Positions 15,168-64,000 of a stretch of 64,000 bases of DNA are shown in pieces. This stretch comes from Armigeres subalbatus. Its lineage: Eukaryota; Arthropoda; Insecta; Diptera; Culicidae. The translations under genes were made by a program, and so were the position numbers. The stretch is from contig NC_085141.1 of the NCBI RefSeq assembly GCF_024139115.2, forward strand, positions 404,925,612-404,989,611, in the 5' to 3' direction. The notes beneath the pieces are model-generated. The model ran no database searches and was not told the DNA's origin. It saw nothing but the letters and a program-made list of their open reading frames with translations. The first letter of the stretch is position 1, and every line of letters starts with the position of its first letter.

Positions 15168-18100
15168 CAGCGGTTCTCAACCTTTTTCTTGCGAGGTACC
15201 CCTTCGAACTTTTTCATTTATCGAGGTACCCCCTATTTTGTTCGATGTAAAAAATAAGCGTTTTTCTCAAGACATATGCAAAACAGACCAGAGAACTAAC
15301 TGAATTTATGGCTCTCTATAAAAATTGTCTGAAATGTTCGTAATTCAATGAAAGTTTCCAATTAAATTTACGTTCAGACATCATTACAACTTTGATGGCA
15401 TTTGGAGTCTTCCGAGCCTCTTAAATAAACAATTCCAAGCCTAAAAAGAAGGCTCTAGATCATCTTGAAAAGAGGCCTTCAAGCCTCTTGAAAGAATAAT
15501 TTCTAGTCTCTTGAAAGAATGTTTCCATACCTTTTGAAAGGAAGCTTCCAAATCTCTTGAAAGGAGGGCTTTTGAGCTCCTTGAAAGGAGGCTTCTGAGA
15601 GGAGGCTTCCGAGCCTCTAGAAAAAAGGCTTCCGAGATTCTTGAAAGGAAGCTTCCGAGCCTCTTGGATGGAGGCTTCCGAGCCTCTTGAAAGGAGGCTT
15701 CCGAGCCTCTTGAAAGGAGGCTTCCGAGCCTCTTGAAAGGAGGCTTCCGAGCCTCTTGAAAGGAGGCTTCCGAGCCTCTAGAAAGGAGGCCTGAGCCTCT
15801 TGAAAGGAGGCTTGAGGCCTCTTGAAAGGAGGCTTGAGCCTCTTGAAAGGAGGCTTGAGCCTCTTGAAAGAAGGCTTCTGAGGCCTCTTGAAAGGAGGCT
15901 CTGAGCCTCTTGAAAGGAGGCTTCTGAGCCTCTTGAAAGGAGGCTTCTGAGCCTCTTGAAAGGAGGCCTGAGCCTCTTGAAAGGAGGCTTCTGAGCCTCT
16001 TGAAAGGAGGCCTGAGCCTCTTGAAAGGAGGCTCTGAGCCTCTTGAAAGGAGGCTTCTGAGCCTCTTGAAAGGAGGCCTGAGCCTCTTGAAAGGAGGCTT
16101 CTGAGCCTCTTGAAAGGAGGCTTCTGAGCCTCTTGAAAGGAGGCTTCTGAGCCTCTTGAAAGGAGGCTTCTGAGCCTCTTGAAAGGAGGCCTGAGCCTCT
16201 TGAAAGGAGGCTTCCTGAGCCTCTTGAAAGGAGGCTTCTGAGCCTCTTGAAAGGAGGCTGAGCCTCTTGAAAGGAGGCTTCTGAGCCTCTTGAAAGGAGG
16301 CTTCTGAGCCTCTTGAAAGGAGGCCTGAGCCTCTTGAAAGGAGGCTTCTGAGCCTCTTGAAGGAGGCTCTGAGGCCTCTTGAAAGGAGGCTTGAGCCTCT
16401 TGAAAGGAGGCTCTGAGCCTCTTGAAAGGAGGCTCTGAGCCTCTTGAAAGGAGGCTCTGAGCCTCTTGAAAGGAGGCTCTGAGCCTCTTGAAAGGAGGCT
16501 TCTGAGCCTCTTGAAAGGACGCTTCCTGAGCCTCTTGAAAGGAGGCTTCTGAGCTTTGAAAGGAGGCTCTGAGCCTCTTGAAAGGAGGCTTGAGGCCTCT
16601 TGAAAGAGGCTCTGAGGCCTCTTGAAAGGAGGCTTCCTGAGCCTCTTGAAAGGAGGCTTCCGGAGCCTCTTGAAAGGAGGCTTCTGAGCCTCTTGAAAGG
16701 AGGCTTCTGAGCCTCTTGAAAGGAGGCTTCTGAGCCTCTTGAAAGGAGGCCTGAGCCTCTTGAAAGGAGGCTCTGAGCCTCTTAAAAGGAGGCTCTGAGC
16801 CTCTTGAAAGGAGGCTTACGGGCTTCTTGAAAGGAGGCTTACGGGCTTCTTGAAAGGAGGCTTCTGAGCCTCTTGAAAGGAGGCCTGAGCCTCTTGAAAG
16901 GAGGCCTGAGCCTCTTGAAAGGAGGCTCTGAGCCTCTTGAAAGGAGGCCTGAGCCTCTTGAAAGGAGGCTTGAGCCTCTTGAACGGAGGCCTGAGCCTCT
17001 TGAACGGAGGCTTCTGAGCCTCTTGAACGGAGGCTTCTGAGCCTCTTGAACGGAGGCTTCTGAGCCTCTTGAACGGAGGCTTCTGAGCCTCTTGAACGGA
17101 GGCTTCGAGAGCCTCTTGAAAGGAGGCCTGAGCCTCTTGAAAGGAGGCTTGAGCCTCTTGAAAGGAGGCTTCCGGGCCTCTTGAAAGGAGGCTTCTGAGC
17201 CTCTTGAAAGGAGGCTTCTGAGCCTCTTGAAAGGAGGCTTGAGGCCTCTTGAACGGAGCCTTGAGCCTCTTGAACGGAGGCTTCTGAGCCTCTTGAACGG
17301 AGGCTTCTGAGCCTCTTGAACGGAGGCTTCTGAGCCTCTTGAACGGAGGCTTCTGAGGCCTCTCTTGAACGGAGGCTTCTGAGCCTCTTGAAAGGAGGCT
17401 TGAGGCCTCTTGAAAGGAGGCTCTGAGGCCTCTTGAAAGGAGGCTTCTGAGCCTCTTGAAAGGAGGCTTCTGAGCCTCTTGAAAGGAGGCTTCTGAGGCC
17501 TCTTGAAAGGAGGCTTCTGAGGCCTCTTGAAAGGAGGCTCTGAGCCTCTTGAAAGGAGGCTTGAGCCTCTTGAAAGGAGGCTTCTGAGCCTCTTGAAAGG
17601 AGGCTTCTGAGCCTCTTGAAAGGAGGCTTCTGAGCCTCTTGAAAGGAGGCTCGAGCCTCTTGAAAGGAGGCTTCTGAGCCTCTTGAAAGGAGGCTTCTGA
17701 GCCTCTTGAAAGGAGGCTTCTGAGCCTCTTAAAGGAGGCTTCTGAGGCCTCTTGAAAGGAGGCTTCCTGAGCCTCTTGAAAGGAGGCTTCTGAGCCTCTT
17801 GAAAGGAGGCTTCTGAGCCTCTTGAAAGGAGGCTTCTGAGCCTCTTGAAAGGAGGCTTCGAGCCTCTTGAAAGGAGGCTTCTGAGCCTCTTGAAAGGAGG
17901 CTTCTGAGCCTCTTGAAAGGAGGCTTCTGAGCCTCTTGAAAGGAGGCTGAGGCCTCTTGAACGGAGGCTTCTGAGCCTCTTGAAAGGAGGCTTCTGAGCC
18001 TCTTGAAAGGAGGCTTCCGAGCCTCTTGAAAGGAGGCTTCCTGAGCCTCTTGAAAGGAGGCTTCCAGACCCCTTGATAGAAGGCTTCCAAGCCTCTTGAA

Positions 18101-18686
18101 GGAAGGCTTCCGTTCCCTTGATAAAAAGCTTCCGATCCTCTTGAAAAAAGGCTTCCGAGCCCCTTGTAAAAAGGCTTCCGAGCCTCTTAAAAGGAGGCTT
18201 TCGAGGCTTTCGAAAGAAGGCCTACGAGCTGATTGGAAGGAAGCTTCCAAGTCTCTTGCACCGAAGCTATTGAGCTTTTCAGAAAAAATACCTTCATGTG
18301 TCTCGAATAAAGTCTTTCGAATCTTTAGATTCTATATGACAGATCTGAAACATATTCTTATTATATTATTCAACAATTCGTCCCGATCAGGTGGATTACA
18401 TTGAAGATTGTCTATTCTACGTTTTGTCGCTTTGTTTATTTTGTCTCACAGCCCTTCATTTAATGTGCTGGTTGGGGTAAGCAGGATTCACAAGTCTTTG
18501 ATTTACTGATAGCCATTCATGTTATGAACAATGCAAAGTTTTAGAATCAAAAATTATTGAAACTTTATCAACAAGCTTGTATTGAAGTTGTTATACGTCC
18601 GCCATTACGCATCTTTTCCCGAGGTATCCCCTAGAGCCAGCGAAGGTACCCCCAGGGGTTCATGTACCCCAGGTTGAGAACCGCTG
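15168..18686. mobile_element. Non-autonomous hAT element carrying a satellite
   Basis: Perfect 16-bp terminal inverted repeats (CAGCGGTTCTCAACCT) lie at 15168-15183 and 18671-18686. An exact 8-bp target duplication TCCTAGGA flanks them at 15160-15167 and 18687-18694. CAGNGGTTCTCAACC is a terminus found in many animal hAT elements. The pre-insertion site is seen intact in the MITE at 60054-60401. The 3.5-kb interior encodes no transposase. It has ~240 bp and ~400 bp of unique ends around the 23-bp array, so mobilisation would need a transposase in trans. Confidence 0.9.
15405..18275. repeat. Satellite S1: ~23-bp palindromic minisatellite
   Basis: About 120 units (estimated from length). On the plus strand each unit is arm AGCCTC, 7-nt loop TTGAAAG, arm GAGGCT, then a 4-nt loop usually TCTG, 23 bp in all. 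Because arms alternate, each arm can pair with either neighbour. Units at both edges (15405-15600, 18070-18275) are degenerate while the centre is homogeneous, as expected from unequal exchange. An AACGG variant of the 7-nt loop forms blocks at about 16980-17110 and 17250-17390. Minus-strand frames repeating S-F-Q-E-A are artefacts. Confidence 0.93.
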
Positions 18687-18793
18687 TCCTAGGATACAAG
18701 TTGCTATGTTAGGTCAGTGCTCTTAAACAGTGTGCTGTGATCAGAACGCACAAACACGCGTTCTCGTGTTCAGAATGCATCTCTGCCTCCCGA

Positions 18794-20602: not shown

Positions 20603-20626
20603 TGAATCAAACCTATTTATTTATCA

Positions 20627-22036
20627 TCAGACTAAGGCCGGAGTGGCCTGTGCTGCACATAAAAGACTTCTCCATTCAGCTCGGTCCATGGCTGCACTTC
20701 GCCAACCACGCAGTCTGCGGAGGGTCCGCAAGTCGTCCTCCACCTGATCGATCCACCTTGCCCGCTGTGCACCTCGCCTTCTTGTTCCCGTCGGATCGTT
20801 GTCGAGAACCATTTTCACCGGATTACTGTCCGACATTCTGGCTACGTGCCCGGCCCACCGCAGTCTTCCGATTTTCGCGGTGTGAACGATGGATGGTTCT
20901 CCCAACAGCTGATGCAACTCGTGGTTCATTCGCCTCCTCCACGTACCGTCCGCCATCTGCACCCCACCATAGATGGTACGCAGCACTTTCCTTTCGAAAA
21001 CTCCCAGTGCGCGTTGGTCCTCCACGAGCATCGTCCAGGTCTCGTGTCCGTAGAGAACTACCGGTCTTATAAGCGTTTTGTAGATAGTCAGTTTGGTACG
21101 GCGGCGAACTCTATTCGAGCGGAGCGTCTTGCGGAGTCCAAAGTACGTACGATTTCCAGCCACTATGCGTCTCCGAATTTCTCTGCTGGTATCGTTATCG
21201 GCGGTCACCAGTGAGCCCAAGTACACGAATTCTTCAACCACCTCGATTTCGTCACCACCGATAGAAACTCGTGGTGGGTGGCTCATATTGATCTCTCTTG
21301 AGCCTCTTCCTATCATGTACTTCGTCTTCGACGTGTTGATGACTAGTCCAATCCGTTTAGCTTCGCTTTTCAGTCTGATGTAGGCTTCCTCCATCCTCTC
21401 AAAGTTACGTGCCATGATATCAATGTCGTCGGCGAAACCAAATAACTGGACGAACTTCGTGAAAATCGTACCACTCGTGTCAATCCCTGCCCTTCGTATT
21501 ACTCCCTCCAAAGCGATGTTGAATAGCAGACACGAAAGACCATCACCTTGCCGTAACCCTCTACGGGTTTCGAAGGGACTCGAGAATGCCCCTGAAACTC
21601 GAACTACGCACATCACCCGATCCATCGTCGCCTTGATCAACCGTATCAGTTTATCCGGAAATCCGTTTTCGTGCATTAGCTGCCATAGCAGGTCCCGATC
21701 GATTGTATCATATGCGGCTTTGAAGTCGATAAATAGATGATGTGTGGGCACGTTGTATTCGCGGCATTTCTGCAATACCTGACGTATGGCGAACACCTGG
21801 TCTGTGGTAGAGCGTTCACCCATAAATCCCGCCTGGTACTGCCCCACGAACTCTCTTGCAATTGGTGTTAGTCGACGGCATAAAATTTGGGAGAGTACCT
21901 TGTAGGCGGCGTTCAGCAATGTGATTGCGCGGTAGTTGCTACAATCCAGCTTACCGCCCTTTTTGTAGATGGGACACACGACACCTTCCATCCACTCCTG
22001 CGGCAGAACCTCATCCTCCCAAACCTTGGTAATCAC
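20627..22036 (-). CDS. RTE reverse transcriptase domain (frame 3 of the broken ORF)
   Basis: A 469-residue open frame holding the RT: F-I-D-F-K-A-A-Y-D (102-110), G-L-R-Q-G-D-G-L-S (160-168) and the catalytic F-A-D-D box (201-204), then the thumb and the C-terminal R-W-A-G-H-V-A-R-M segment typical of RTE elements. The frame is open upstream of the first methionine for about 25 codons, which supply the start of the RT domain, so 22036 is not the real start. The aspartates are intact; only the frameshifts to the other two pieces disable it. Confidence 0.88.
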   Translation of the reverse strand: MITKVWEDEVLPQEWMEGVVCPIYKKGGKLDCSNYRAITLLNAAYKVLSQILCRRLTPIAREFVGQYQAGFMGERSTTDQVFAIRQVLQKCREYNVPTHHLFIDFKAAYDTIDRDLLWQLMHENGFPDKLIRLIKATMDRVMCVVRVSGAFSSPFETRRGLRQGDGLSCLLFNIALEGVIRRAGIDTSGTIFTKFVQLFGFADDIDIMARNFERMEEAYIRLKSEAKRIGLVINTSKTKYMIGRGSREINMSHPPRVSIGGDEIEVVEEFVYLGSLVTADNDTSREIRRRIVAGNRTYFGLRKTLRSNRVRRRTKLTIYKTLIRPVVLYGHETWTMLVEDQRALGVFERKVLRTIYGGVQMADGTWRRRMNHELHQLLGEPSIVHTAKIGRLRWAGHVARMSDSNPVKMVLDNDPTGTRRRGAQRARWIDQVEDDLRTLRRLRGWRSAAMDRAEWRSLLCAAQATPALV

Positions 22037-22097
22037 CCAGTGCAGCGCTCTAGCCAGTGCTTCACCACCGTGTTTAAACAGCTCTCCTGGTAGTTGG

Positions 22098-22829
22098 TCA
22101 ACTCCAGGGGCTTTGTTGTTTTTCAGCCGGCCGATCTCCTCCTGGATTTCCTGGAGATTCGGAGCCGGAAGTCGCGTGTGCTCCTAGGTTCATTACCATA
22201 CCGCCACCGTTGTCTGCCATATCGCCATTCAGGTGCTCTTCGTAGTGCTGCCGCCACCTTTGGATCACCTCACGCTCGTTTGTAAGAAGGTTCCCGTTTA
22301 TGTCATTACACATATCGGGCTGTGGCACGTGGCCCTTACGTGAACGGTTCAACTTCTTATAGAACTTTCGTGCGTTATTAGCGCGGTACAGTTCCTCCGT
22401 CTCTTCACGGTCTCGATCTTCCTGCTGGCGCTTTTTCCTCCGGAAAATCGAGTTTTGTCTGTTCCGCGCCAGTTTGTATCGTGCCTCGTTCGCCCTCGTG
22501 CGGTGTTGCAGCAATCTCGCCCATGCTGCATTCTTCTCCTCAACTAACTGCTCACATTCGCCGTCATACCAGTCGTTTCTCTGATCCGGAGCCACCGTGC
22601 CTAGTGCAGCGGTTGCGGTGCTTCCAATGGCGGATCGAATATCTCTCCAGCCATCTTCAAGAGATGCTGCGCCTAGCTGCTCTTCCGTTGGGAGTGCCAC
22701 TTCCAGCTGCTGCGCGTAGTCTTGGGCTAGTCTACCGTCTTGTAGCTGCTCAATGTTAAGCCGCGGCGGACGAGAGTTTTGAGCGCAGACATACTGCGAC
22801 GAGGTAGTGGTCGGATTCAATATTCGCAC
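22098..22829 (-). CDS. RTE linker region (frame 2 of the broken ORF)
   Basis: A 243-residue open frame overlapping the end of the endonuclease frame. Its useful part starts near 22770 with the R-L-N-I-E-Q-L segment. It is rich in charged residues (long R/K/E stretches around R-R-K-K-R-Q-Q-E) and covers the domain between endonuclease and reverse transcriptase, with no known catalytic function. It goes out of frame near 22115, at a run of A and C residues just before the start of the RT domain. Confidence 0.75.
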   Translation of the reverse strand: MRILNPTTTSSQYVCAQNSRPPRLNIEQLQDGRLAQDYAQQLEVALPTEEQLGAASLEDGWRDIRSAIGSTATAALGTVAPDQRNDWYDGECEQLVEEKNAAWARLLQHRTRANEARYKLARNRQNSIFRRKKRQQEDRDREETEELYRANNARKFYKKLNRSRKGHVPQPDMCNDINGNLLTNEREVIQRWRQHYEEHLNGDMADNGGGMVMNLGAHATSGSESPGNPGGDRPAEKQQSPWS

Positions 22830-24219: not shown

Positions 24220-24505
24220 CCGGGGCCCTCCTTAGCCGTGCGGTAAGATGCGCGGCTACAAAGCAAGACCATGCTGAGGGTGGCTGGGTTCGATTCCCGG
24301 TGCCGGTCTAGATAATTTTCGGCTTGGAAATTGTCTCGACTTCCCTGGGCATAAAAGTATCATCGTGCTAGCCTCATGATATACGAGTGCAGAAATGGTA
24401 ACTTGGCTTAGAAACCTCGCGGTTTATAACTATGGAAGTGCTTAATGAACACTAGGCTGCGAGGCGGAAATGCCCTAGTGGGGATGTAATGCCAACGAAG
24501 AAAAG
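24220..24505 (+). mobile_element. Feilai-type SINE with intact promoter boxes
   Basis: The best-preserved copy in the window. The tRNA-like head begins near GGCCCTCCTTAGCCGTGCGG; the B box GGTTCGATTCC is exact at about 24288-24298. The body ends in GGGGATGTAATGCCAACGAAG and a short A-rich tail. A 13-bp duplication AACTAGGACGCCT flanks it (24207-24219 and 24506-24518), the mark of LINE-mediated insertion. It sits in the RT end of the decayed LINE. Confidence 0.92.
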
Positions 24506-24518
24506 AACTAGGACGCCT

Positions 24519-37750: not shown

Positions 37751-37810
37751 TTGTCAATTTTTATTACAATTTTGTTAACATTTTGTCACAAATATGTTAA
37801 AATGTTTCTT

Positions 37811-38098: not shown

Positions 38099-38106
38099 TG
38101 TTTCTT

Positions 38107-43010: not shown

Positions 43011-43064
43011 CATTGATTAATTTTTGTGAAGAGCACACATTTGGATTTAGTCCGAATCCGAATC

Positions 43065-46000
43065 ACTTCTGGGATTTAGTCCGAATCCCTTCTGGGATTC
43101 AGTTCGAATCCCTTCTGGGATTCAGTCCGAATCCCTTCTGGGATTCTGTCCGAATCCCTTCTGGGATTCTGTCCGAATCCCTTCTGGGATTCTGTCCGAA
43201 TCCCTTCTGGGATTCTGTCCGAATCCCTTCTGGGATTCTGTCCGAATCCCTTCTGGGATTCTGTCCGAATCCCTTCTGGGATTCTGTCCGAATCCCTTCT
43301 GGGATTCAGTCCGAATCCCTTCTGGGATTCAGTCCGAATCCCTTCTGGGATTCAGTCCGAATCCCTTCTGGGATTCAGTCCGAATCCCTTCTGGATTCAG
43401 TCCGAATCTCCTTTGGGATTCAGTTCGAATCTCTTTTGGGATTCAGTCCGAATCCCTTCTGGGTCAGTCCGAATCCCTTTTGGGATTCAGTCCCAATCCC
43501 TTCTGAGATTCAGTCCGAATCCCTACTGTGATTCAGTCCGAATCCCTTCTGGGATTCAGTCCGACTCCTTCTGGGGTTCAGTCAAAATCCTTCGTGGATT
43601 CAATCCAAATCCCTTCTGGGATTCAGTCCGAATCCCTTCTGGGATTCAGTCCGAATCCCTTCTAGGATTCAGTCCGAATCCCTTCTGGGATTCATTCCGA
43701 ATCCCTTCTGGGATTCAGTCCAAATCCCTTCTGGGATTCAGTCCGAATCCTTTCTGGGATTCAGTTCGAATCCCTTCTGAGATTTAGTTCGAATCCATTC
43801 TGAGATTCAATCCGAATCCGTTCTGCGAATCAGTCCGAATTGCTTCTGGGATTCAGTCCGAATTCTTTCTGTGATTCAGTCCAAATGCCATCTGGGATTC
43901 AGTCCGAATTGGTTCTGGGATACAGTCCGAATCCCTTCTGCGAGTCAGTCCAAATTCCTTCTGGGATTCAGCGTAATCATTATTGGAGAGACCTCGGCCC
44001 TTCTGGGATTCAGTCCAAATCCCTTCTGGGATTCAGTCCGAATCCCTTCTGGGATTCAGTCCGAATCCCTTCTGGGATTCAGTCCGAATCTCTTCTGGGA
44101 TTCAGTCCGAATCCCTTCTGGGATTCAGTCCGAATCCCTTCTGGGATTCAGTTCGAATCCCTTCTGGGATTCAGTCCGAATCCCTTCTGGGATTCAGTCC
44201 GAATCCCTTCTGGGATTCAGTTCGAATCCCTTCTGGGATTCAGTCCGAATCCCTTCTGGGATTCAGTCCGAATCCCTTCTGGGATTCAGTCCGAATCCCT
44301 TCTGGGATTCAGTCCGAATCCCTTCTGGGATTCAGTCCGAATCCCTTCTGGGATTCAGTCCGAATCCCTTCTGGGATTCAATCCGAATCCTTCCTGGGAT
44401 TCAGTCCGAATCCTTTCTGACATTCAGTCCAAATTCCTTATGGTATTCAGTTCGAATCCCTTCTGGGAATCAGTCCGAATCCGTTCTGGAATTCAGTCCG
44501 AAACACATCTGGGATTCTGTCCGAATCCATTCTGGGATTCAGTCCGAATCCCTTCTGGTATTCAGTCCGAATCCCTTCTGGTATTCAGTCCGAATCCCTT
44601 CTGGGATTCAGTTCGAATGCCTTCTGGGATTCAGTCCGAATCCCTTCTGGAATTCAGTCCGAATCCCTTCTGGGATTCAGTTCGATTCCCTTCTGGGAAT
44701 CAGTCCGAATCTTTTCTGGGATTCAGTCCGAATCCCTTCTGGGATTCAGTCCGAATCCCTTCTGGGATCCAGTCCGAATCCCTTCTGCGATTCGGTCCGA
44801 ATCCCTTCTGGGATTCAGTCCGAATCCCTTCTGGGACTCAGTCCGAATCCCTTCTGGAATCCAGTCCGAATCCCTTCTGCGATTCAGTCTTAATCCCTTC
44901 TGGGATTCAGTTCGAATCCCTTCTGAGATTCAGTCCGAATCCCTTCTGGGATTCAGTCCGAAACACATCTGGAATTCAGTCCGAATCCCTTCTGGGATTC
45001 AGTCCGAATCTCTTCTGAGATTTAGTCCAAATCCCTTCTGAGATTCAGTCCGAATCTCTTCTGGGAATCAGTCCAAATACCTTCTGGGATTCAGTCCGAA
45101 TCCATTCTGAGATTCAGACCGAATCCCTTCTGAGATTCAGTCCGAATCTCTTCTGGGATTCAGTCCGAATCCCTTCTGAGATTCAGTCCGAATCTTTTCT
45201 GGGATGCAGTCTAAATCCCTTCGTGGATTCAGTCCGAATCCCTTCGCGGATTCAGTCCGAATCCGTTCGTGGATTCAGTCCGAATCCGTTCGTGGATTCA
45301 GTCCGAATCCGTTCGTGGATTCAGTCCGAATCCGTTCGTGGATTCAGTCCGAATCCCTTCTGGGATTCAGTCCGAATCCCTTCTGGGATTCAGTCCGAAT
45401 CCCTTCTGGGATTCAGTCCGAATCCCTTCTGGGATTCAGTCCGAATCCCTTCTGGGATTCAGTCCGAATCCGTTCGTGGATTCAGTCCGAATCCCTTCTG
45501 GGATTCAGTCCGAATCCCTTCTGGGATTCAGTCCGAATCCTTCTGAGATTCAGTCCGAATCCCTTCTGGGATTCAGTCCGAATCCTTCTGGGATTCAGTC
45601 CGAATCCCTTCTGGGATTCAGTCCGAATCCCTTCTGGGATTAAGTCCGAATCCCTTCTGGGATTAAGTCCGAATCTCTTCTGGGATTAAGTCCGAATCCC
45701 TTCTGGGATTCAGTCCGAATCCCTTCTGGGATTCAGTCCGAATCCCTTCTGGGATTCAGTCCGAATCTCTTCTAGGATTCAGTCCGAATCCCTTCTGGGA
45801 TTCAGTCCGAATCCCTTCTGGGATTCAGTCCGAATCCCTTCTGGGATTCAGTCCAAATCCCTTCTGGGATTCAGTCCGAATCCCTTCTGGGATTCAGTCC
45901 GAATCCCTTCTGGGATTCAGTCCGAATCCCTTCTGGGATTCAGTCCGAATCCCTTCTGGGATTCAGTCCAAATCCCTTCTGGGATTCAGTCCGAATCCTT

Positions 46001-47140
46001 TCTGGGATTCAGTCCGAATCCCTTCTGGGATTCAGTCCGAATCCTTTCTGGGATTCAGTCCGAATCCTTCTGGGATGCGGTTCGAATCCCTTCTGGGATT
46101 CCTTCCGAATCCCTTCTGGGATTCAGTCCGAATCCTTCTGGGATTCAGTCCGAATCCCTTCTGGGATTCAATCCGATTCCTTCTTCGATTCAGTCCGAAT
46201 CCTTCTGGGATTCAGTCCGAATCCATTCTGGGATTCAGTCCGAATCCCTTCTGGGATTCAGTGCGAATCCCTTCTGGGATTCAGTTCGAATCCCTTCTGG
46301 GATTCAGTCCGAATCCTTTCTGGAATTCAGTTCGAATCCTTTCTGGGATCCAGTCCGAATACCTTCTGGGATTCAGTCCGAATCCCTTCTGAGATTCAGT
46401 CCGAATCCCTTCTGGGTTTCAGTCCGAATCCGTTCTGGGATTCAGTCCGAAACACATCTGGGATTCAGTCCGAATCCATTCTGGGATTCAGTCCGAATTT
46501 CTTCTGGGATTCAGTCCGAATTTCTTCTGGGATGCAGTCCGAATCCCTTCTGGGATTCAGTCCGAATTATTTCTGAGATTCAGTCCGAATTATTTATGGG
46601 ATTCAGTCCGAATCCCTTCTGGGATTCCTTCCGAATCCCTTTTGGGATTAAGTCCGAATCCCTTCTGGGATTCAGTCCGAATCCCTTCTGGGATTTAGTC
46701 TAGGATTCCGTCCGAATCACTTCTGGGCCGTGGTCCGAATCTCTTATGGCATTCAGTCCGAATCCTTCTGGGATTTAGTCAGAATCCTTCTGGGATTCAC
46801 TCTCGGATTCAGTCCGAATCCCTTCTGGGATTCAGTCCGAATTTCTTCTGAGATTCAGTCCGAATCCCATCTGGGATTCCGTCTGAATTCCTTCTGGGAT
46901 TCCATCCGAATTCCTTCTGGGATTCCGTCTGAAGCCCTTCTGGGGCTTGGTCCGAATATCTTCTGGAATTCGGTCCAAATCCCTTTTGGAATTCGGTCAA
47001 AATCCCTTCTGGGCCGTGGTCCGAATCCTTCTGGCATTCAGTCTGAATCCCTTCTGGGATTTAGTCAGAATCTCTTCTGGGATTCACTCTCCGATTCTGT
47101 CCGAAACCCTTCTGGAATTCAGTCCGTATCCCTTCTGGGT
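43065..47140. repeat. Satellite S3: 23-bp palindromic minisatellite
   Basis: About 175 units over 4.1 kb. Each unit is arm GAATCCC, 4-nt loop TTCT, arm GGGATTC and 5-nt loop AGTCC, 23 bp. Sub-arrays differ: 43145-43290 has loop TGTCC, 45215-45350 has GTTCGTGGATTC. One foreign spacer (ACCTCGGCC after GTAATCATTATTGGAGAG) breaks it at 43972-43998. Length changes are rarer than in S1, S4 and S5; variation is mostly substitutions. Plus-strand frames with W-D-S-V-R-I-P-S-G-I-Q-S are artefacts: 23 is not a multiple of 3, so three frames alternate every 69 bp. Confidence 0.94.
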
Positions 47141-47444
47141 GAGTAAAATGCAAACAATTTCTGTGATTACTTTTCCTATACTCCAGTGTTTAATTTTTAC
47201 CCACCTCAACTCAAATTTATGTTATTTTCACTCACTCGGGACTATGATAAAAACAACTCATATTTGGCTTCTTCAACCAAACCGCATTAGTTGGGTCGAT
47301 GCAGCTCTCTTTGTTTTTAATATCATTCATGAGAGCGAGTGAGAAAACTAGTTAAAGGAGTTAAAAATTTGAACTTCGTTTGAGTACGCTTGAGTTCTTT
47401 AAACCTATTTTTAGATACTTATTTTATCTGTATTGGATGCATTT

Positions 47445-47510
47445 CTGGGATTCAGTTCTAAATCCTTCTGGGATTCAACGTAATCTTTATTGGAGAGATC
47501 TCTGGGATTT
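47445..47510. repeat. Outlying S3 fragment with the array's own spacer
   Basis: Two diverged S3 units (TTCTGGGATTCAGTTC, TTCTGGGATTCAACG) are followed by GTAATCTTTATTGGAGAGAT, nearly the same 20-bp spacer that breaks the main array at about 43974. The same junction therefore exists twice, 3.5 kb apart, outside and inside the array. Confidence 0.75.
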
Positions 47511-47549
47511 GTACTGAATTCTGTGGGAAAGTCTTCTCTGATGCAGTAA

Positions 47550-50460
47550 AATTCTTCTCTGGACAATTTTAGGGTTCTATTTTATTTGTTTTTAAAGGCT
47601 GTAAGGAAATTAATAACATTTTCTTGATGGTCAAATTTTCTTTGGGATTTAGTCTAAATATATTCTCATGGATAATAAGTGTGGAAGTTGAATATAAAGA
47701 AATACAGAAATTTCTAAAATGAAGATAAAGAAAAAGTTTGAATCAATCCAATGATATCGAATTCATCCGCATTGCATTGAAACATGAGATCCAACTCACG
47801 ACTTCACTTGTCCTGCTAACTTTCCTCAGCAACATTCAAGCATAAAACCGCAATCATGACATTAAAAGTTCCGTTGGATTGAATCGATTGAACTTGCTCG
47901 TAAGTTTCTCCGCGGTCGCGCTTTCATGCCAGGTTCCAGTAACGATGTTGACGACGATGACGATGGATGGAAGGCAAAACGGTTCTGCGGTTTCGCGGTA
48001 TCGCCTCGAAAATACTGCGGATTCTGTGTTTACTCGTCGTCGTCGTCGTCGTCGCCGCCGGTTTGAAAAACAGAAAAGGCGTAAACGCTCGATTGAAACC
48101 TCAGCCGAGCGTGTCGCGTGCCTCAAAGCGAATTGTGTACCTTTGTCGGTCGGGGGTACCGTTGGGATATCATTTTCCCCTGAGTCGGTGGAGGATACTT
48201 TGGACAGTCGCCGCATTTGTGTTACTCAGAAAGGATTTCGCTTCCGAAAATCAAATTTGCTTTTTCATGATTTCAAAATCTCCATTCTAAAGCCCTCTTA
48301 AGCTTCAATATGTGCCCGGAGCAACGACGACTGTCACAACATGGATTGCTTTTGTCGTAAATGTACGTCAGCCTCAAGATGTATCATAAACACCCCAAAG
48401 CTGCAACATAAACAACTCTATCCCAAGACAAGGGCAAAGATGACGACGCCGCTGCGCCGCGTCGCTCCAATCGACCGCATCGGAACGCAAGGATACCTTT
48501 CTTCACCGTTCACGTTGGACGGTGTGGATGGTCGGTCGTCCTTCTGAGCACCTTCTGGGGAAAAGGGGCACACGGCCGCTGTCTGGAGGTTGGAACGACC
48601 AAGAAAGCACGAAATCACGTTGAGACCCATCTTCAGCATCATCGTTGTTGTCACCATCGCATCGTCGTCATTCTGCGTCCTGCTCGGTGGTGCAGAAGAC
48701 AACGAACGGCTCAATGACGTGAAAATAGATTAAACAAATAAAAACATTGTTTATCTACTCCACTCGGGTGCTACGGAGTGTGTTCCGTTATTGGTGCCAA
48801 TATGAGATGTCGTCGATTTAAGAATTAAGGGTGACTATGTGAGAATCTTAAACTTTGTAGATTTTGGTGGCTCATACGGTATTCAATTCTTCTGCATGAT
48901 TCATTTGACATCTTAATTTTTTAAGCAGTATGTCTTTTAAGCTCCATTTTTTTTCACAAGCATAGGCCACCCTTATCTGCAAACAATCATGGCTGGGTGG
49001 CATTCCTTTCAGATTTCGTTCCATCCGAATCCATCCTCATAAAAACAATCATTTCACCGACGAAAGAAGCCAAATAAGTTAATAAACTCTATGATAACGC
49101 GTCTCGTACATTGACTCGTAAAATCCAACCTTTACAACGCCTCGAATGTCATCTGAGTCTAGGATGACTTCACCGTCGCCTTCGGAAGTCAATCGTGTGA
49201 CATCCTCCCGTGGAGATCATCACTTTTTGATGCTCTCTGTCTCTATCCCTAAACCTCTGCTCGTAAAATCCTGATAGCGCACTTGGCACGTATCGTACCT
49301 GTACTCGGAATTGGCAGCAGTAAATTTGACGTCTATATTGATTACCGCACAATTATTGCCACATTTCGGATTGGGGTCCTCTACGTGGTCTTGTGCTGGA
49401 TCTGTCAAATGACATTTGGTCGAAAACCAATTCTTCGGTGAAATATTTGTCAGGATGTTGTTTGCGATTTGATTATTATCGTTTTCAATTCAATGTCTTT
49501 TGTTCAAATAGCACTGACGTTAAACACATGTGATTTATTGGGTCCAACTTGTTTGCACTATTTTGTCAAATGATCTCTGGCAATTAAGCAAAGCAAATTA
49601 TCATTATTTCCTACATTGGCTGTTCTTAAGTTAGAAAAGTTTATTCGGCAATATGTCCCTTCGACCAACTTTCATTAGCCCCTCATAAAAATTTCTTCGT
49701 ACCACCGTCTCATAAGATTCTGATTTTAATATCGCCGAGCTGCGAACATGACGGCACATAAAACAGTCCACGCACGCAGCAATTTCAGTGTATTAGAAGA
49801 ATTTCGCTACATGGACTACCGACCGACCGACCGGGGCTGACAATGATGAGTAAATATTCATACATATGCCAAGTGCGAGTGAGGAAAACAAGCGCAAATG
49901 TTACCATTAAAGCACGAGTGACGAGACGCAAGAGCGATGAGTAAGTAGGCACGCGCGCTGGACGTGGCCGGAGGGGCAAAACAGATTTGGATTTGCTTCG
50001 GTTGGAAGTGCTGTTGGGGAGTTGTAAAAAGCGAGCAAACACGGTTGTAAAGCGATGAAAATGGAAATCCAAGACTCCACTTAGAGCAGCTTGAGCGACG
50101 TCATTGCATACGAGTGGAACAATGAGAGCTGGATAGTTGCGGAGAAGCTGCGATTGTGACAAGTGGTTTTATGCGACAAGGGTTTGTGTATAATTACCTG
50201 TAAATTGTGTGAATAATGAACTGACAATGTGTGATAACGATTTCTCTCTGAGGCCATCTTGAAAATAATATTCTTTTCAGGTATTAAATAGCGCACATGG
50301 CTTGAACGATGGTTGTAAAATGAAACAAAGAAAAGCGTTTTACGACAAAATTAAATTGCGAGTATGAAAACATATTCAAGATTGATAACAAAGTTGAGAA
50401 AAGTTGAGCAATGACTAGTAACGTTTTTAAAAACGTTTGCATGAAGGGTGGAAAGGTAGG
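47550..50460. other. No gene recognised; includes a (GTC)n microsatellite
   Basis: 47850-48720 and 49140-50200 have balanced composition and some overlapping open frames on both strands, none with a motif I know. A (CGT)n run lies at about 48034-48060 and encodes poly-R in one frame. 49397-49675 has a few GGTCGAA / TTCGACC words like decayed foldback arms. A host gene with small exons cannot be excluded. Confidence 0.35.
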
Positions 50461-50517
50461 TTTAAATTGGGTTCCGGAAAGGCCGGTTCAAATTGGGTTC
50501 AATTTTTTTTAACCGTG

Positions 50518-50526
50518 CTTCTTCTT

Positions 50527-50557
<31 letters not shown>

Positions 50558-50807
50558 TTGGCATTACATCCCCACACTGGGACAGAGCCGCCTCGCAGCT
50601 TAGTGTTCATTAAGCACTTCCACAGTTATTAACTGCGAGGTTTCTAAGCCAGGTTACCATTTTTGCATTTGTATATCATGAGGCTAGCACGATGATACTT
50701 TTATGCCCAGGGAAGTCGAGACAATTTGCAATCCGAAAATTGCCTAGACCGGCACCGGGAATCGAACCCAGCCACCCTCAGCATGGTCTTGCTTTGTAGG
50801 AGGGCCC
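50518..50807 (-). mobile_element. Feilai-type SINE with A box deleted
   Basis: The tail is a long (GAA)n run (seen as CTT repeats, 50518-50556), followed in reverse by the intact body and B box (GGAATCGAACCC near 50758). The head then jumps from GCTTTGTAG straight to GAGGGCCC. About 26 bp that contains the A box in the copy at 37811-38098 is missing. The copy should therefore lack internal pol III initiation. Confidence 0.85.
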
Positions 50808-50924
50808 CTTGCTTTAAAAAAACTTAAAAACACCTAATTTTGGGAGTATGTGCGTTGGGAATAATGTCTGTATTTTGTCATTGCTTACCAGTCTGCCTAC
50901 AAAACGAGGAGTTTTTTTTAATAA

Positions 50925-51130
50925 TTCAGTGAAAAAAGAAACTGTAATTCAGTCAATAACCGAATTCAATTTCATCAGCATCCCTTCTAAAGTTCGATCA
51001 GAATTCTTCTGGAATTCAGTAAAAATCTCTTCTAGAGACAGCCAAAATCCACTCAGTCAGAATCTTCTCCGAGATTCAATCAAAATCCCTACCAAGATAC
51101 AATCTGACTTATCTTCAGAATTAAATCATA
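50925..51130. repeat. Degenerate S3-like units at the S4 edge
   Basis: Words such as TTCTGGAATTCAGTAAAAAT and TTCTCCGAGATTCAATCAAAAT follow the S3 pattern (TTCT loop, GATTCAGTC) rather than the S4 pattern. This edge is about 200 bp long and grades into S4 near 51140, which supports common ancestry of S3 and S4. Confidence 0.6.
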
Positions 51131-51144
51131 AGGGGACAGAAACC

Positions 51145-52970
51145 CCATCGGGATTCGGACAGAATCCCCTTCGGGATTCGGACAGAATCCCCTTCGGGAT
51201 TCGGACAGAATCCCCTTCGGGATTCGGACAGAATCCCCTTCGGGATTCGGACAGAATCCCCTTCGGGATTCGGACAGAATCCCCTTCGATCTGGACAGAA
51301 TCCTTCGGGATTCGGACAGAATCCCTTCGGGATTCGGACAGAATCCCTTCGGGATTCGGACAGAATCCCTTCGGGATTCGGACAGAATCCTTCGGGATTC
51401 GGACAGAATCCCTTCGGGATTCGGACAGAATCCTTCGGATCGGACAGAATCCTTCGGGATCGGACAGAATCCCTTCGGGATTCGGACAGAATCCCTTCGG
51501 ATTCGGACAGAATCCCCTTCGGGATTCGGACAGAATCCTTCGGGATTCGGACAGAATCCTTCGGGATTCGGACAGAATCCTTCGGATCGGACAGAATCCT
51601 TCGGGATCTGGACAGAATCCCCTTCGATTCGGACAGAATCCCCTTCGGGATTCGGACAGAATCCCTTCGGGATTCGGACAGAATCCTTCGGGATTCGGAC
51701 AGAATCCCTTCGGGATTCGGACAGAATCCTTCGGGATTCGGACAGAATCCCTTCGGGATTCGGACAGAATCCCTTCGGGATTCGGACAGAATCCTTCGGG
51801 ATTCGGACAGAATCCCTTCGATCTGGACAGAATCCTTCGGGATTCGGACAGAATCCCCTTCGGGATTCGGACAGAATCCCTTCGGGATTCGGACAGAATC
51901 CTTCGGGATTCGGACAGAATCCTTCGATTCGGACAGAATCCCCTTCGGGATTCGGACAGAATCCCTTCGATTCGGACAGAATCCTTCGATTCGGACAGAA
52001 TCCCCTTCGATTCGGACAGAACTCCTTCGGGATTCGGACAGAATCCCCTTCGATTCGGACAGAATCCCTTCGGGATTCGGACAGAATCCTTCGGGATTCG
52101 GACAGAATCCCTTCGGGATTCGGACAGAATCCTTCGGGATTCGGACAGAATCCTTCGGGATTCGGACAGAATCCTTCGGATTCGGACAGAATCCTTCGGG
52201 ATTCGGACAGAATCCCTTCGGGATTCGGACAGAATCCCTTCGGGATCTGGACAGAATCCTTCGGGATTCGGACAGAATCCTTCGGGATTCGGACAGAACT
52301 CCCTTCGATTCGGACAGAATCCCTTCGGGATTCGGACAGAATCCTTCGGGATTCGGACAGAATCCCTTCGGGATTCGGACAGAACTCCCTTCGGGATTCG
52401 GACAGAATCCCTTCGATTCGGACAGAATCCTTCGATTCGGACAGAATCCTTCTGGATCGGACAGAATCCCTTCGGGATTCGGACAGAATCCTTCGGGATT
52501 CGGACAGAACTCCCTTCGATTCGGACAGAATCCCCTTCGGGATTCGGACAGAATCCTTCGGGATTCGGACAGAATCCCTTCGGGATTCGGACAGAATCCT
52601 TCGGGATCTGGACAGAATCCTTCGGAATTCGGACAGAATCCTTCGATTCGGACAGAATACACCTTCGGGATTCGGACAGAATACACCTTCGGGATTCGGA
52701 CAGAATACACCTTCGGGATTCGGACAGAATCCCCTTCGGGATTCGGACAGAATCCCCTTAGGGATTCGGACAGAATCCCCTTCGGGTTTCGGACAGAATG
52801 CCATTCGGGATTCGGACAGAATCCCCTTCGGGATTCGGACAGAATCCCCTTCGGGATTCGGACAGAATCCCCTTCGGGATTCGGACAGAATCCCCTTCGG
52901 GATTCGGACAGAATCCCCTTCGGGATTCGGACGGAATCTCCTTCGGGATTCGGACAGAATCCCCTTCCCA
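51145..52970. repeat. Satellite S4: 22-23-bp palindromic minisatellite
   Basis: About 80 units. The full unit is arm GAATCCC, 4-nt loop CTTC, arm GGGATTC and 5-nt loop GGACA (23 bp). Many units have lost one to five bases, nearly always in the C run, G run or the GGGATT piece, giving 18-22-bp units. Full 23-bp units dominate both ends (51145-51290 and 52730-52960) while shortened ones fill the middle. The long frames open on both strands (over 500 residues each) are repeat artefacts. Confidence 0.93.
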
Positions 52971-53333
52971 GGATTCGAACAGAGGGCCCTTCCTAGGATT
53001 CGAACAGAGGCTCCTTTCCAGGATTCGAAAAGAGACTCTTTTCCTGGATTCGAACAGAGGCTCCCCAAGTAACCAAAAGTCCCTTTAAAAATACATTCAC
53101 AGAAAATAAGAAATACAATAAAAATAAAAAATACAAAATACAGAATCCCCTGAAAATACATTTTCGCTTAATCAGCTTGACTGAGCGAAAAACGTACTTG
53201 TGAAGAAACTTTTGGTTACTTGGGTCCTTCCCAGGATTCGAACAGAGGCTCTTTCCCAGGATTTGAGCAGAGGCTCCTTCCCAGGATTCGAACAGAGGCT
53301 GCTTCCTAGGATTCGAACAGAGGCTCCCTCCGA
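52971..53333. repeat. 25-bp array joining S1-like and S2-like words
   Basis: Eight units, four before and four after the MITE at 53065-53223. Each has GGATTCGAAC (as in S2) followed by AGAGGCTC (an S1 arm on its minus strand) and CTTTCCCA. The unit is 25 bp and lacks the clean alternating dyad of the 23-bp satellites. It directly abuts S4 and looks like a recombinant of satellite pieces or their ancestor. Confidence 0.7.
53065..53223. mobile_element. MITE inside the 25-bp array
   Basis: The ends CCAAGTAACCAAAAGT and its exact inverted ACTTTTGGTTACTTGG enclose 159 bp of AT-rich DNA, with an internal hairpin (TTTTCGCT near 53161, AGCGAAAA near 53184). The array resumes in register right after it. 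A target duplication is not clear within the repeat. Confidence 0.8.
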
Positions 53334-53610
53334 TTCGGATCAGAATATTCTCTGGATTTGTTTGTTGCTGTTCAGGCAGAATCCCTTTTCGGGATTAAGT
53401 TTGAATCTTTTATGGGATATCGACATTCCGAATTCAAAAGTCATTGTACTGAAGAATGGACAGTTAAAAGATATTATAAGTGAACTCTAAACAGTTCTAA
53501 AATCATTTATTTATCAACGAGTACATATCGGAAAGCAACAAGAATTTGTGAAGACAAATCTGGAAAATTCAAGTTATTGGCGATAGAATGCAATGCATTT
53601 ATCATTGTTT
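53334..53610. other. Satellite edge, then no gene recognised
   Basis: 53380-53425 has diverged S3/S4-like units (CAGAATCCCTTTTCGGGATTAAG). After that the sequence is AT-rich without recognisable content up to the SINE target site. Confidence 0.5.
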
Positions 53611-53628
53611 CATTACTGACACTTTTCA

Positions 53629-54065
53629 TTAGCATTGAGCAATTCGCACATATTCGTAGGTGGTACAAGCCAAGACTATTGTATGAGAGTAGCACCACTC
53701 TCATCCGTTGCCAGATATTGATTTATTACTAATAACTATCTCTTAGATGGAAGCAATGCACTCTCCAATAGTAGAGATCTTTCCTGGCCACTTCCTTGCG
53801 AATGCCGGGAAAGGGGAAGGATGGTTTGTTGGACACCTACTTAAGAAAGATGCAGAGAACTCTACGACCTTTCATAGGTGCCACGGGAGGTTTTGGAATT
53901 GTGTGGAAGGTTATAACAATAGGAATCGTTTTGATAGAACGTGAAACACAGAAAGAACTAAGATAGAAATACAAAGTAGGAAAAGGACGAGCCTGGAATT
54001 GAACCCACAACCTTTTGCTTATAAGGCAGAAGCGAGAGCCGCTAGACCACCGATCTCGTCTGTTC
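53629..54065 (-). mobile_element. tRNA-headed SINE (anticodon-like TAT)
   Basis: The minus-strand head at about 54060-53985 is tRNA-like: GTGGTCTAGCGGCTCTCGC (A box region), an anticodon-like loop CTTATAA and a B box GGTTCAATTCC. The ~360-bp body ends near 53629. An exact 18-bp duplication CATTACTGACACTTTTCA flanks it (53611-53628 and 54066-54083). The head matches a tRNA-Ile(TAT)-like or related tRNA only loosely. A 3' fragment of the same family is at 5816-5985. Confidence 0.85.
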
Positions 54066-60045: not shown

Positions 60046-60053
60046 CGGTAGAA

Positions 60054-60401
60054 CAGAGATGCATCCTGAACAGAACATGAGCCAAGAGCGTGCCTTGGTG
60101 TTCTAAGTTTTGAACTCTGAACACAGTTCAGTGTGCACTGGGTTGGTACGCAAGCGAAACGATCATGGTAACTAAGATTCCTTAGATTTGGGGTTATGCA
60201 AAAACATACGAGCATGCTTGATTTCTATCCGTTAGATGCCCACGTGTTCCATTACTAGTTGAAAAATGAGTAGCATGCCGTCGCTTGAATTTGTTTTCCT
60301 AGGATACAAGTTGCTAAGTTAGGTCAGTGCTCTTGAACAGTGTGCAGTGTTCAGAACGTTTTGAACATGAACACGCGTTCTCGTGTTCAGATGCATCTCT
60401 G
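60054..60401. mobile_element. hAT-like MITE copy 2, intact
   Basis: A 348-bp copy of the element at 14917-18785, with inverted ends CAGAGATGCATCCTGAAC / GTTCAGATGCATCTCTG and an exact 8-bp duplication CGGTAGAA (60046-60053 and 60402-60409). It interrupts the Ty3-like pol frame just after the protease. Its interior shows the empty TCCTAGGA site (about 60297-60304) into which the hAT element inserted in copy 1. Confidence 0.92.
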
Positions 60402-60645
60402 CGGTAGAAATTGGTTGGATATTTTTTATCCAAACTGGAGGAATAGTTTTGAAGCCAATTTGCACGTAAACAAATTACATACCAATCAGCTAACCGAATC
60501 GGGATTTGAAGCAGATCTTGTGCTTAAAGAGGAGAGGCCCGTGTTTCGCAGAGCATACGAAGTACCGTTCAAACTGAAGGACAAGGTTCTTGAGCATTTG
60601 GACTCCTTGGAGAAACAAAACGTTATAACTCCCATAAAGGCATAC
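60402..60645 (+). pseudogene. Ty3/gypsy-like pol: protease-RT boundary
   Basis: After the MITE, the frame reads N-W-L-D-I-F near its start and then P-V-F-R-R-A-Y-E-V-P-F-K-L and L-E-H-L-D-S-L-E-K-Q-N-V-I-T-P. This is the conserved N-terminal edge of Ty3 reverse transcriptase. It stops abruptly near 60640, before any catalytic motif, at an internal deletion. Confidence 0.8.
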
Positions 60646-61024: not shown

Positions 61025-64000
61025 AGATTGGACTTTCCAGAGGAAATTCATCGGAATTTCCAGAGGAAATTCATCGAATTTCAGAGGAAATTCATCGAAT
61101 TTCCAGAGAAAATTCATCGGAATTTCCAGAGGAAATTCATCCGAATTTCCAGAGGAAATTCATCCGATTTCCAGAGGAAATTATCCGATTTCCAGAGGAA
61201 ATTCATCCGATTTCCAGAGGAAATTCATCCGATTTCCAGAGGAAATTCATCCAATTTCCAGAGGAAATTCATCCGATTCAGAGGAAATTCATCCGAATTC
61301 CAGAGGAAATTCATCCGAATTCCAGAGGAAATTCATCCAATTCAGAGGAAATTCATCCGATTTCAGAGGAAATTCATCCGAATTTCCAGAGGAAATTCAT
61401 CCGATTTCCAGAAGAAATTCATCCGAATTTTCAGAGGAAATTCATCCGAATTTCCAGAGGAAATTCATCCGAATTTCCAGAGGAAATTCATCCGAATTCC
61501 AGGGGAAATTCATCCGAATTTCCAGAGGAAATTCATCCGATTTCCAGAGGAAATTCATCAATTTCCAGAGGAAATTCATCCGAATTCCAGAGGAAATTCA
61601 TCCGATTTCCAGAGGAAATTCATCCGAATTTCAGAGGAAATTCATCCGAATTCCAGAGGAAATTCATCCGAATTTCAGAGAAATTCATCCGATTCAGAGG
61701 AAATTCATCCGAATTTCAGAGGAAATTCATCCGAATTTCCAGAGAAATTCATCCGATTCCAGAGGAAATTCATCCGAATTTCCAGAGGAAATTCATCCGA
61801 TTTCCAGAGGAAATTCATCCGAATTTCCAGAGGAAATTCATCCGAATTTCCAGAGGAAATTCATCCGAATTCAGAGAAATTCATCCGAATTTTCAGGGAA
61901 ATTCATCCAGGGGAAATTCATCCGAGTTTTCAGAGGAAATTCATCCGATTTCCAGAGGAAATTCATCCGAATTTCCAGTCCGAATTGCCAGCGGAAATTC
62001 ATCCGATTTCCAGAGGAAATTCATCCGATTTCAGAGGAAATTCATCCGATTTCCAGAGGAAATTCATCCGATTTCCAGAGGAAATTCATCCGATTTCCAG
62101 AGGAAATTCATCCGATTTCCAGAGGAAATTCATCCGAATTCCAGAGGAAATTCATCCGAATTCCAGAGGAAATTCATCCGATTTCCAGAGGAAATTCATC
62201 CGAATTTCCAGAGGAAATTCATCCGAATTCAGAGGAAATTCATCCGAATTCAGAGAATTCATCCGATTTCCAGAGGAAATTCATCCGAATTTCAGGAGGA
62301 AATTCATCCGAATTTCAGGAGGAAATTCATCCGAATTACCAAAGAAAATTCATCCAATTTCCAGAGGAAATTCATCCGAATTTCAGAGGAAATTCATCCG
62401 AATTTCAGAGGAATTCATCCGAATTCCAGAGGAAATTCATCCGATTTCCAGAGGAAATTCATCCGAATTCAGAGGAAATTCATCCGAATTTCCAGAGGAA
62501 ATTCATCCGAATTTCCAGAGGGAATTCATCCGAATTTCCAGAGGAAATTCATCCGAATTTCCAGAGGAAATTCGTCGGGATTTCCAGAGGAAATTCATCC
62601 GAATTTCCAGAGGAAATTCATCCGAATTTCCAGAGGGAATTCATCCGGATTTCCAGAGGAAGTTCATCGGATTTTCCAGAGGAAATTCATCCGATTTCCA
62701 GAGGAAATTCATCCGATTTCCAGAGGAAATTCATCCGATTTCCAGAGGAAATTCATCCGAATTTCCAGAGGAAATTCATCCGAATTCAGAGGAAATTCAT
62801 CCGATTTCCAGAGGAAATTCATCCGATTTCCAGAGGAAATTCATCCGATTTCCAGAGGAAATTCATCCGAATTTCCAGAGGAAATTCATCCGATTTCCAG
62901 AGGAAATTCATCCGAATTTCCAGAGGAAATTCATCCGATTTCCAGAGGAAATTCATCCGATTTCCAGAGGAAATTCATCCGATTTCCAGAGGAAATTCAT
63001 CCGAATTTCAGAGGAAATTCATCCGAATTCCAGAGGAAATTCATCCGAATTCAGAGGAAATTCATCCGAATTTCCAGAGGAAATTCATCCGAATTTCAGA
63101 GGAAATTCATCCGAATTCAGAGGAAATTCATCCAATTTCCAGAGGAAATTCATCCGAATTCCAGAGGAAATTCATCCGAATTTCAGTAAATTCATCCGAT
63201 TTCCAGAGGAAATTCATCCGAATTCAGAGGAAATTCATCCGAATTTCGGAGGAAATTCATCCGAATTTCCAGAGGAAATTCATCCGAATTTCCAGAGGAA
63301 ATTCATCCGAATTTTCAGGAAATTCATCCGAATTTCCAGAGGAAATTCATCCGATTTCCAGAGGAAATTCATCCGAATTCAGAGGAAATTCATCCAATTC
63401 CAGAGGAAATTCATCCGAATTCCAGAGGAAATTCATCCGAATTTCCAGAGGAAATTCATCCGAATTCAGAGGAAATTCATCCGATTTCCAGAGGAAATTC
63501 ATCCGAATTTCCAGAGGAAATTCATCCGAATTTCCAGAGGAAATTCATCCGAATTTCCAGAGGAAATTCATCCGATTTCCAGAGGAAATTCATCCGATTT
63601 CCAGAGGAAATTCATCCGATTTCCAGAGGAAATTCATCCGAATTTCAGAGGAAATTCATCCGAATTTCAGAGGAAATTCATCCGATTTCAGAGGAAATTC
63701 ATCCGAATTCAGAGGAAATTCATCCGAATTTCAGAGGAAATTCATCCGATTTCAGAGGAAATTCATCCGAATTTCCAGAGGAAATTCATCCGGATTTCAG
63801 CGGAAATTCATCCAACTTTTCAACGGAAGTTCATCCGACTTTCCAATGGAAATTCATCCGAATTTCAGAGAAATTCATCCGATTTCCAGAGGAAATTCAT
63901 CCGAATTTCAGAGGAAATTCATCCGATTTCCAAAGGAAATTCATCCGAATTCCAGAGGAAATTCATCCAATTTCCAGAGGAAATTCATCCGAATTTCAGA
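61025..64000. repeat. Satellite S5: 23-bp palindromic minisatellite, runs off the window
   Basis: About 130 units, continuing past the end. The full unit is arm GAATTTCC, 3-nt loop AGA, arm GGAAATTC and 4-nt loop ATCC, 23 bp, with 8-bp perfect arms. Many units are 20-22 bp through loss of T, C or A in the AATTTCC piece, so one arm is often shortened while GGAAATTCATCC is nearly invariant. It starts right after the Ty3-like coding end, so it may have grown in that element's 3' region. Confidence 0.94.

Follow-up and report, generated by a model that had tools for sequence, protein, structure and literature searches.

The window analysed here, a stretch of 64,000 nucleotides of Armigeres subalbatus chromosome 3 (scaffold C3; NC_085141.1, positions 404,925,612 to 404,989,611; assembly GZ_Asu_2, GCA_024139115.2, 1.336 Gb), contains five arrays, termed S1 to S5, in which a short unit composed of an arm, a loop, the inverted arm and a spacer is repeated head to tail over long distances. 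They are therefore satellite or minisatellite DNA. Splitting the arrays unit by unit with wraparound parsing, partial end units being included in the counts, gave the following features, among them a neighbouring array without a dyad (S4b), which is interrupted by a miniature inverted-repeat transposable element (MITE):

15404–18275, minus strand: S1, about 129 units, founder unit AGCCTC-CTTTCAA-GAGGCT-CGGA at the array edges
36582–37748, plus strand: S2, 52 units GAATCC-CTTTCAA-GGATTC-GAAC
43057–47139, plus strand: S3, 181 units GAATCCC-TTCT-GGGATTC-AGTCC
51134–52967, plus strand: S4, 86 units, full form GAATCCC-CTTC-GGGATTC-GGACA
52946–53331, plus strand: S4b, 25-bp unit GAGGCTCCTTTCCAGGATTCGAACA, dyadless, interrupted by a MITE
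61031–64000, plus strand: S5, 136 units GAATTTCC-AGA-GGAAATTC-ATCC

All five dyad arrays were recovered at about the positions proposed in an initial annotation made from the sequence alone, and with a summed share of 20.2% its estimate of about a fifth of the window is borne out. The arm-loop geometries that it assigned are exact: the best circular dyads are 6-7-6-4 in S1 and S2, 7-4-7-5 in S3 and S4, and 8-3-8-4 in S5. Compared with shuffled units, these dyads reach P values of 0.018, 0.020, 0.0018, 0.005 and 0.001 for S1 to S5, and folding of three units as single-stranded DNA against dinucleotide shuffles gives z values of −2.3, −3.8, −5.5, −3.1 and −7.3, the fold of S1 being matched by 6 of 200 shuffles. 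The same dyad test was applied to seven further repeat units from the window, of which one fell below P 0.05 (a unit of about 73 bp at 8021–8275, P 0.016). The 25-bp unit of S4b yields a dyad P of 0.45 and folds no better than shuffles in any clear way (z −1.2). The MITE that splits S4b is 161 bp long (53064–53224), with inverted ends of 34 nt that are 82% complementary, CCCAAGTAACCAAAAGT.

S1 is situated within a mobile element, which in turn is inserted into an older one:

15168–18686: non-autonomous hAT-type element carrying S1, 3,519 bp, terminal inverted repeat CAGCGGTTCTCAACC
15160–15167: left 8-bp target site duplication TCCTAGGA
18687–18694: right 8-bp target site duplication TCCTAGGA
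14917–18785: older MITE, host of the S1 element, ends CAGAGATGCAT, 8-bp duplication CCTCCCGA
60054–60401, plus strand: uninterrupted copy of the MITE, 348 bp, duplication CGGTAGAA, representing the empty site of the S1 element

In a self-comparison of the window, 14916–15167 and 18687–18786 align to the continuous stretch 60053–60402. S1 takes up 2.87 kb of the 3,519-bp element, and a second complete element of 1,929 bp, with the same ends CAGCGGTTCTCAACC and the duplication GTCTAAAC, is located in stretch L049 (2658–4586). Both duplications, TCCTAGGA and GTCTAAAC, have a central TA, which we take to be characteristic of the Buster branch of hAT. The carrier, a non-autonomous element, is classified as hAT-type from its ends and the length of its duplication, no search for a transposase having been made. 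Transport of S1 by such an element is well supported by the arrangement of these sequences.

In a survey of 17 stretches of 10 kb, taken at round-number positions and comprising 170,000 bp in all, S1-type arrays were present in five stretches and accounted for 10,582 bp, or 6.2% of the surveyed bases (bootstrap 95% range 0.8–13%). Four of these five arrays adjoin the same hAT ends as those of the S1 element in the window. Parsed with the CGGA unit as template, all five loci have CGGA as the majority spacer; interior units of S1 in the window mostly carry CAGA instead. A hAT-type element may have carried S1 over several percent of the genome. Should the survey be representative, this transposon-borne satellite of hairpin units would rank among the larger single components of the 1.34-Gb genome.

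The initial annotation had described the five arrays as unrelated in appearance, a description that fails for S2, S3 and S4. Their longest common words exceed those of shuffled units, with 10 bases between S2 and S3 (P 0.00025), 11 between S3 and S4 (P 0.00025) and 8 between S2 and S4 (P 0.011). With random dyad units of equal geometry as the reference, whole-unit identity falls below P 0.05 in two of ten pairs, namely S3–S4 (18/23 on opposite strands, P 0.0003) and S2–S4 (14/23, P 0.021). S4b, although dyadless, shares 11 bases with S2, a length reached by none of 4000 shuffles, and 8 with S1 (P 0.013). A genome search with the S2 unit, allowing at most one mismatch, returned at least 41 matches, at least 37 of them in the window and at least four at 81.2 Mb on the same scaffold. 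The arrays at the latter position hold a sister unit, S6 (GAATCC-TTAACAG-GGATTC-GTTC), which is identical to S2 at 21 of 23 positions; none of 3000 random dyad units reached this value. A common origin of S2, S3 and S4, forming one family with S6 by virtue of the arms GAATCC/GGATTC, is well supported by these comparisons. The common origin formerly suggested for all five arrays thus holds for S2, S3 and S4 together with S6, is suggestive for S1, which has a 9-base word in common with S2 (P 0.003), and is weak for S5 (7-base words, P 0.03–0.04). In the common-word test, the pairs S1–S3, S1–S4, S1–S5 and S2–S5 were not significant.

Relics of this family were found as matches of the S2 unit or in a scan with an S3 profile, for which the best chance score was 19.9 in three shuffles scanned on one strand:

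40967–41019, plus strand: two-unit S2 relic, on the far side of an AT-rich tract, one of the window matches of the S2 unit
47443–47562, plus strand: decayed S3-type units, 51.7 bits
50942–51107, plus strand: decayed S3-type units left of S4, 49.6 bits
53371–53418, plus strand: relic, 41.4 bits, in which an S4-like spacer precedes one of S3 type, as read by eye

The AT-rich tract (37749–40966) comprises 3.2 kb of AATTTTGTCAC-type repeats, is flanked by S2 units on both sides and contains a short interspersed nuclear element (SINE) in its left part; as judged by eye, the sequences following the S2 copies resemble each other. Amplification by way of a transposon, one of the mechanisms initially envisaged, is supported for S1 by its ends, target duplication and empty site; no convincing ends were found for S2, S3 and S4. 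Terminal repeats with a target duplication were sought up to 3 kb around S3 and none were found. Around S2, the same distance yielded eight loose candidates, most of them lying in or reaching the AT-rich tract, and one in the flank-reversed control, none being convincing. A candidate around S4 (48801–53876), with two mismatches in 13 end bases and one in the 8-bp duplication against none in the control, is weak and was not accepted.

S3 and S4 are related in an unusual manner. S4 sits between the decayed S3-type units at 50942–51107 and those at 53371–53418, and reverse-complementing its spacer GGACA gives exactly TGTCC, a variant found in 8 of 109 scored spacers of S3. When S4 is compared on opposite strands with S3 units carrying this variant, 19 of 23 positions agree and all four mismatches fall inside the four-base loop. 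On one strand, the loops CTTC of S4 and TTCT of S3 have the same orientation and are one base shifted from each other. S4 would thus correspond to an S3 unit whose arms are unchanged but in which one of the single-stranded segments between them is inverted. Between S1 and S2 the loop CTTTCAA would have been retained, with arms that are wholly different yet still complementary; with this loop held fixed, the probability of obtaining the perfect S1 arms by chance is 0.0005. In yeast, template switching has been reported to equalise the arms of inverted repeats and to invert spacers (PMC8604942), and it has also been reported to create or mend stems (PMC8794818). By analogy, template switching is a plausible, though unproven, step in the rewriting of the dyads, and the S3/S4 pair, only a few kb apart, would lend itself well to testing whether satellite families arise by template switching. 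As a separate observation made by eye, a non-repeat insert GTAATC.TTATTGGAGAGA.CTC is found both within S3 (43965–44000) and in the decayed copy (47478–47505).

S5 extends 1,272 bp past the window, to window-equivalent 65272 in stretch L053, and a second S5 array of opposite orientation is located about 5 kb past the first (L053 6257–8000), its end lying beyond the part seen. No flank homology was found between the two arrays, the outer right end being outside the compared sequence. Foldback elements, including Drosophila FB, carry tandem repeats in such an inverted arrangement. Arrays of a 17-bp unit (GGCCAAATGACC type) abut S2 on its left (36256–36583) and S5 on its right (L053 1281–1350), and a unit of 15–17 bp, the same or similar, also occurs in L040, L042, L043, L050 and L051. 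By eye, a 167-bp satellite unit appears to be common to L054 7082–9043 and L042 7652–8614, in opposite orientation.

As an alternative to common origin, the initial annotation proposed a mechanism that generally favours dyads in units of 23 bp. Periods were compared in the first 14 survey stretches with overlaps merged (score of at least 60, period 15–70, at least 2.8 copies). S1-type arrays of 22–24 bp contributed six rows in five stretches, four of them with a dyad at P<0.05. Among the other arrays of 22–24 bp the dyad was significant in none of seven (for example P 0.29 at L041 1068–1170 and 0.89 at L039 3565–3652), compared with one of ten at other periods, and the general mechanism is accordingly unsupported. 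Because there is no excess by family, the survey partly shows what had been named as evidence against such a rule, within the limits of a small sample; counted by bases, the dyad-bearing S1 family dominates the 23-bp class, which is the commonest period in the first 100 kb surveyed (5,084 bp, nearly all S1-type). Arrays of S2 to S6 were absent from the 17 stretches, the only hits being a weak S5-like stretch of 110 bp in L045 and the S1 arrays of L041 and L049, to which S2 cross-matched.

Taken together, the data are best explained by founder units that were amplified in ordinary ways and transported by hAT, fold-back template switching having perhaps rewritten the dyads from one family to another, an account to which we give somewhat more than even credence. 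Minisatellites would take their dyad from the founder units and the arrays would enlarge by ordinary unequal exchange or slippage, while S1 has additionally been spread by transposition, as its terminal repeats, target duplications and empty site show; S5 would be a further array with a weak link to the others. Between families the dyad would have been rewritten with its pairing kept, perhaps by template switching between the two arms during replication, and a function of the hairpin would not be required.

Several observations weigh against this account. The word common to S1 and S2 drops to P of about 0.03 once corrected for ten pairs and is the sole basis of their link, since whole-unit identity is not significant (12/23, P 0.20; 13/23, P 0.06 with the CGGA form); the words that S5 has in common with S3 (P 0.039) and S4 (P 0.032) are only 7 bases long. 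No hAT end could be recognised in the stretch that holds the S1-type array of L041. Examination of 12 arrays or array parts revealed no unit with the main loop or main spacer reversed, and inversions in yeast were reported only with arms longer than 9 bp (PMC8604942), compared with 6–8 bp here. Finally, compensated changes in the two arms number 5 versus 3.4 expected within units of S3 (reached by 116 of 500 shuffles) and are marginally elevated across its junctions (7 versus 3.3; 23 of 500), in S1 (3 versus 1.0; 29 of 500) and in the S6 locus L035 (4 versus 1.1; 26 of 300). L041 has 11 versus 5.2 (none of 300), nine of the 11 being of one variant type and probably copied, and in S2, S4 and S5 the counts do not exceed chance. 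Units carrying two changes are overrepresented in general (17 versus 9.7 in S3). Because of this excess, and because shuffles ignore the copying of units, the compensated changes were not counted as coupling. Compensatory selection within the arrays was not adopted, its signal being marginal at best in S3, S1 and L035, clear only in L041, with its predominant variant type, and lacking in S2, S4 and S5.

Substitution rates of arms versus loops are 0.080 and 0.068 versus 0.034 and 0.063 in S3, and 0.038 and 0.023 versus 0.009 and 0.002 in S4; in S2, S3, S4, L049 and L039 the arms show no clear reduction in variability relative to the loops. Since the arms are not consistently constrained, coupling is marginal and no turned units were found in the 12 arrays or parts, the dyad looks like a founder property kept by homogenisation and not like an actively guarded structure.

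These rates also speak for plain descent, in which a few founders had dyads by accident and copying and homogenisation kept them, the common length and geometry reflecting one ancestor for S2 to S4 and coincidence for S1 and S5. A 6-bp dyad arises in about 2% of shuffled 23-mers, so that, given many arrays, one or two dyads of separate origin would not be unusual, and the absence of dyads from all seven other surveyed arrays of 22–24 bp points in the same direction. However, plain descent requires three independent dyads of one length within 64 kb (S1, the S2–S4 family and S5) as well as independent changes amounting to an exact segment swap between S3 and S4, and we regard it as a serious but less probable alternative to amplification with rewriting. 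A more far-reaching proposal, a superfamily of hairpin minisatellites that maintains its own palindromes, in which fold-back template switching rewrites arms and inverts spacers at the birth of new families, and of which one hAT-loaded branch would make up about 6% of the Armigeres genome, is rather doubtful.

Selection for the hairpin or for a protein site, be it through RNA hairpins, small RNAs or binding of TFIIIC to a sequence resembling the B box of transfer RNA (tRNA) genes, appears very unlikely. The B-box-like GTTCGAATCC is present in S2, S4b and some units of S3, and the units of S2 and S4b match, on the minus strand, 9 of 10 fixed bases of GGTTCGANTCC, which we take to be the tRNA B box consensus, at a chance level of about 0.001 per shuffled unit. 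Moreover, arms are less variable than loops in the S6 locus L035 (0.044 and 0.023 versus 0.116 and 0.246). Yet in S2, S3 and S4 the arms are as variable as the loops or more so, coupling is marginal at best, and S1, S4 and S5 lack a B-box match with at most one mismatch, the A box not having been searched for; a function of the hairpin is thus unsupported. Four copies of a tRNA-like SINE, presumably similar to Feilai-type mosquito SINEs, are present in the window (50543–50799, 37806–38098, 5518–5799 and 24222–24507), and in three the B box is perfect. A reverse-transcriptase frame at 20627–22183 has 97% identity to an Armigeres subalbatus protein over 66% of the query.

It is more improbable still that the 23-bp unit represents two copies of an 11–12-bp repeat with a palindromic core, which would provide the dyad for free. 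The half-units of S5 are similar (11/23; P 0.014 against shuffles, 0.084 against random dyad units), but S1, S2, S3, S4 and S6 show no such similarity (P 0.22–0.43 against shuffles), and this origin was rejected for five of six units.

The description of a full 23-bp unit holds as the design of the arrays and not for many assembled units, which are often 21–22 bp long; exactly 23 bp are found in 61 of 129 units of S1, 39 of 52 of S2, 159 of 181 of S3, 22 of 86 of S4 and 41 of 136 of S5. From edge to interior, indels per unit rise from 0.00 to 0.62 in S2 and from 0.46 to 1.82 in S4, which would fit incomplete polishing of identical units in a long-read consensus. S1 (0.92 versus 0.83), S3 (0.50 versus 0.26) and S5 (1.00 versus 1.10) do not show this contrast. 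Arrays of young identical units flag places where the present assembly may be unreliable. That the arrays themselves are an artefact of an assembly built from Nanopore R9.4.1 reads and polished with Illumina data (PMC12333114) is hardly credible in spite of the interior indels of S2 and S4, since S1-type units and hAT ends recur at other loci, an S2-type unit is also present at 81 Mb, and S3 is stable, with 159 of its units at full length.

In the literature searched (titles and abstract openings), the array units were unreported, which is no proof of absence, and neither 'tandem' nor 'satellite' was found at the start of any word in the main text of the genome paper (PMC12333114). The exact unit patterns of S1, S2, S3 and S5 had no match in viral contigs, nor did that of S3 in a collection of genome contigs, and translated S3 and S1 as queries retrieved no relatives (E 0.001 and E 10; about 8,000 candidates scored each).

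Among known systems, the tapiR satellite locus, a mosquito-conserved source of PIWI-interacting RNAs (piRNAs), resembles the present arrays in forming tandem arrays in culicine mosquitoes (PMC7919454). It differs in that the window search did not place its conserved piRNA sequence in the array units; the best ungapped match of the published satellite piRNA, 21/29, lies at 39465 in the AT-rich tract outside the arrays. With foldback elements such as Tetris (PMC9659126), S5 has tandem repeats in an inverted pair in common, a comparison that covers the pair itself without the outer end of the second array. S3 and S4 are similar to quasipalindrome or template-switch mutations in their perfect arms and turned spacers (PMC8604942, PMC8794818). 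Unlike those mutations, which are single-site events, the presumed product would here have been amplified into arrays. The closest parallel to S1 is provided by MITE-borne satellites, Xstir and miDNA4 in Xenopus and the GTCY repeats of Lepidoptera, in which non-autonomous DNA transposons harbour a growing tandem array and disseminate it (PMC9659126). S1 differs from these in the hAT-type ends and 8-bp duplications of its carrier and in its 23-bp dyad unit, neither of which is reported for them in the parts of that work considered here. Transposon-borne satellites are already known (PMC9659126), and what distinguishes the present case is the hairpin unit and its possible share of the genome.

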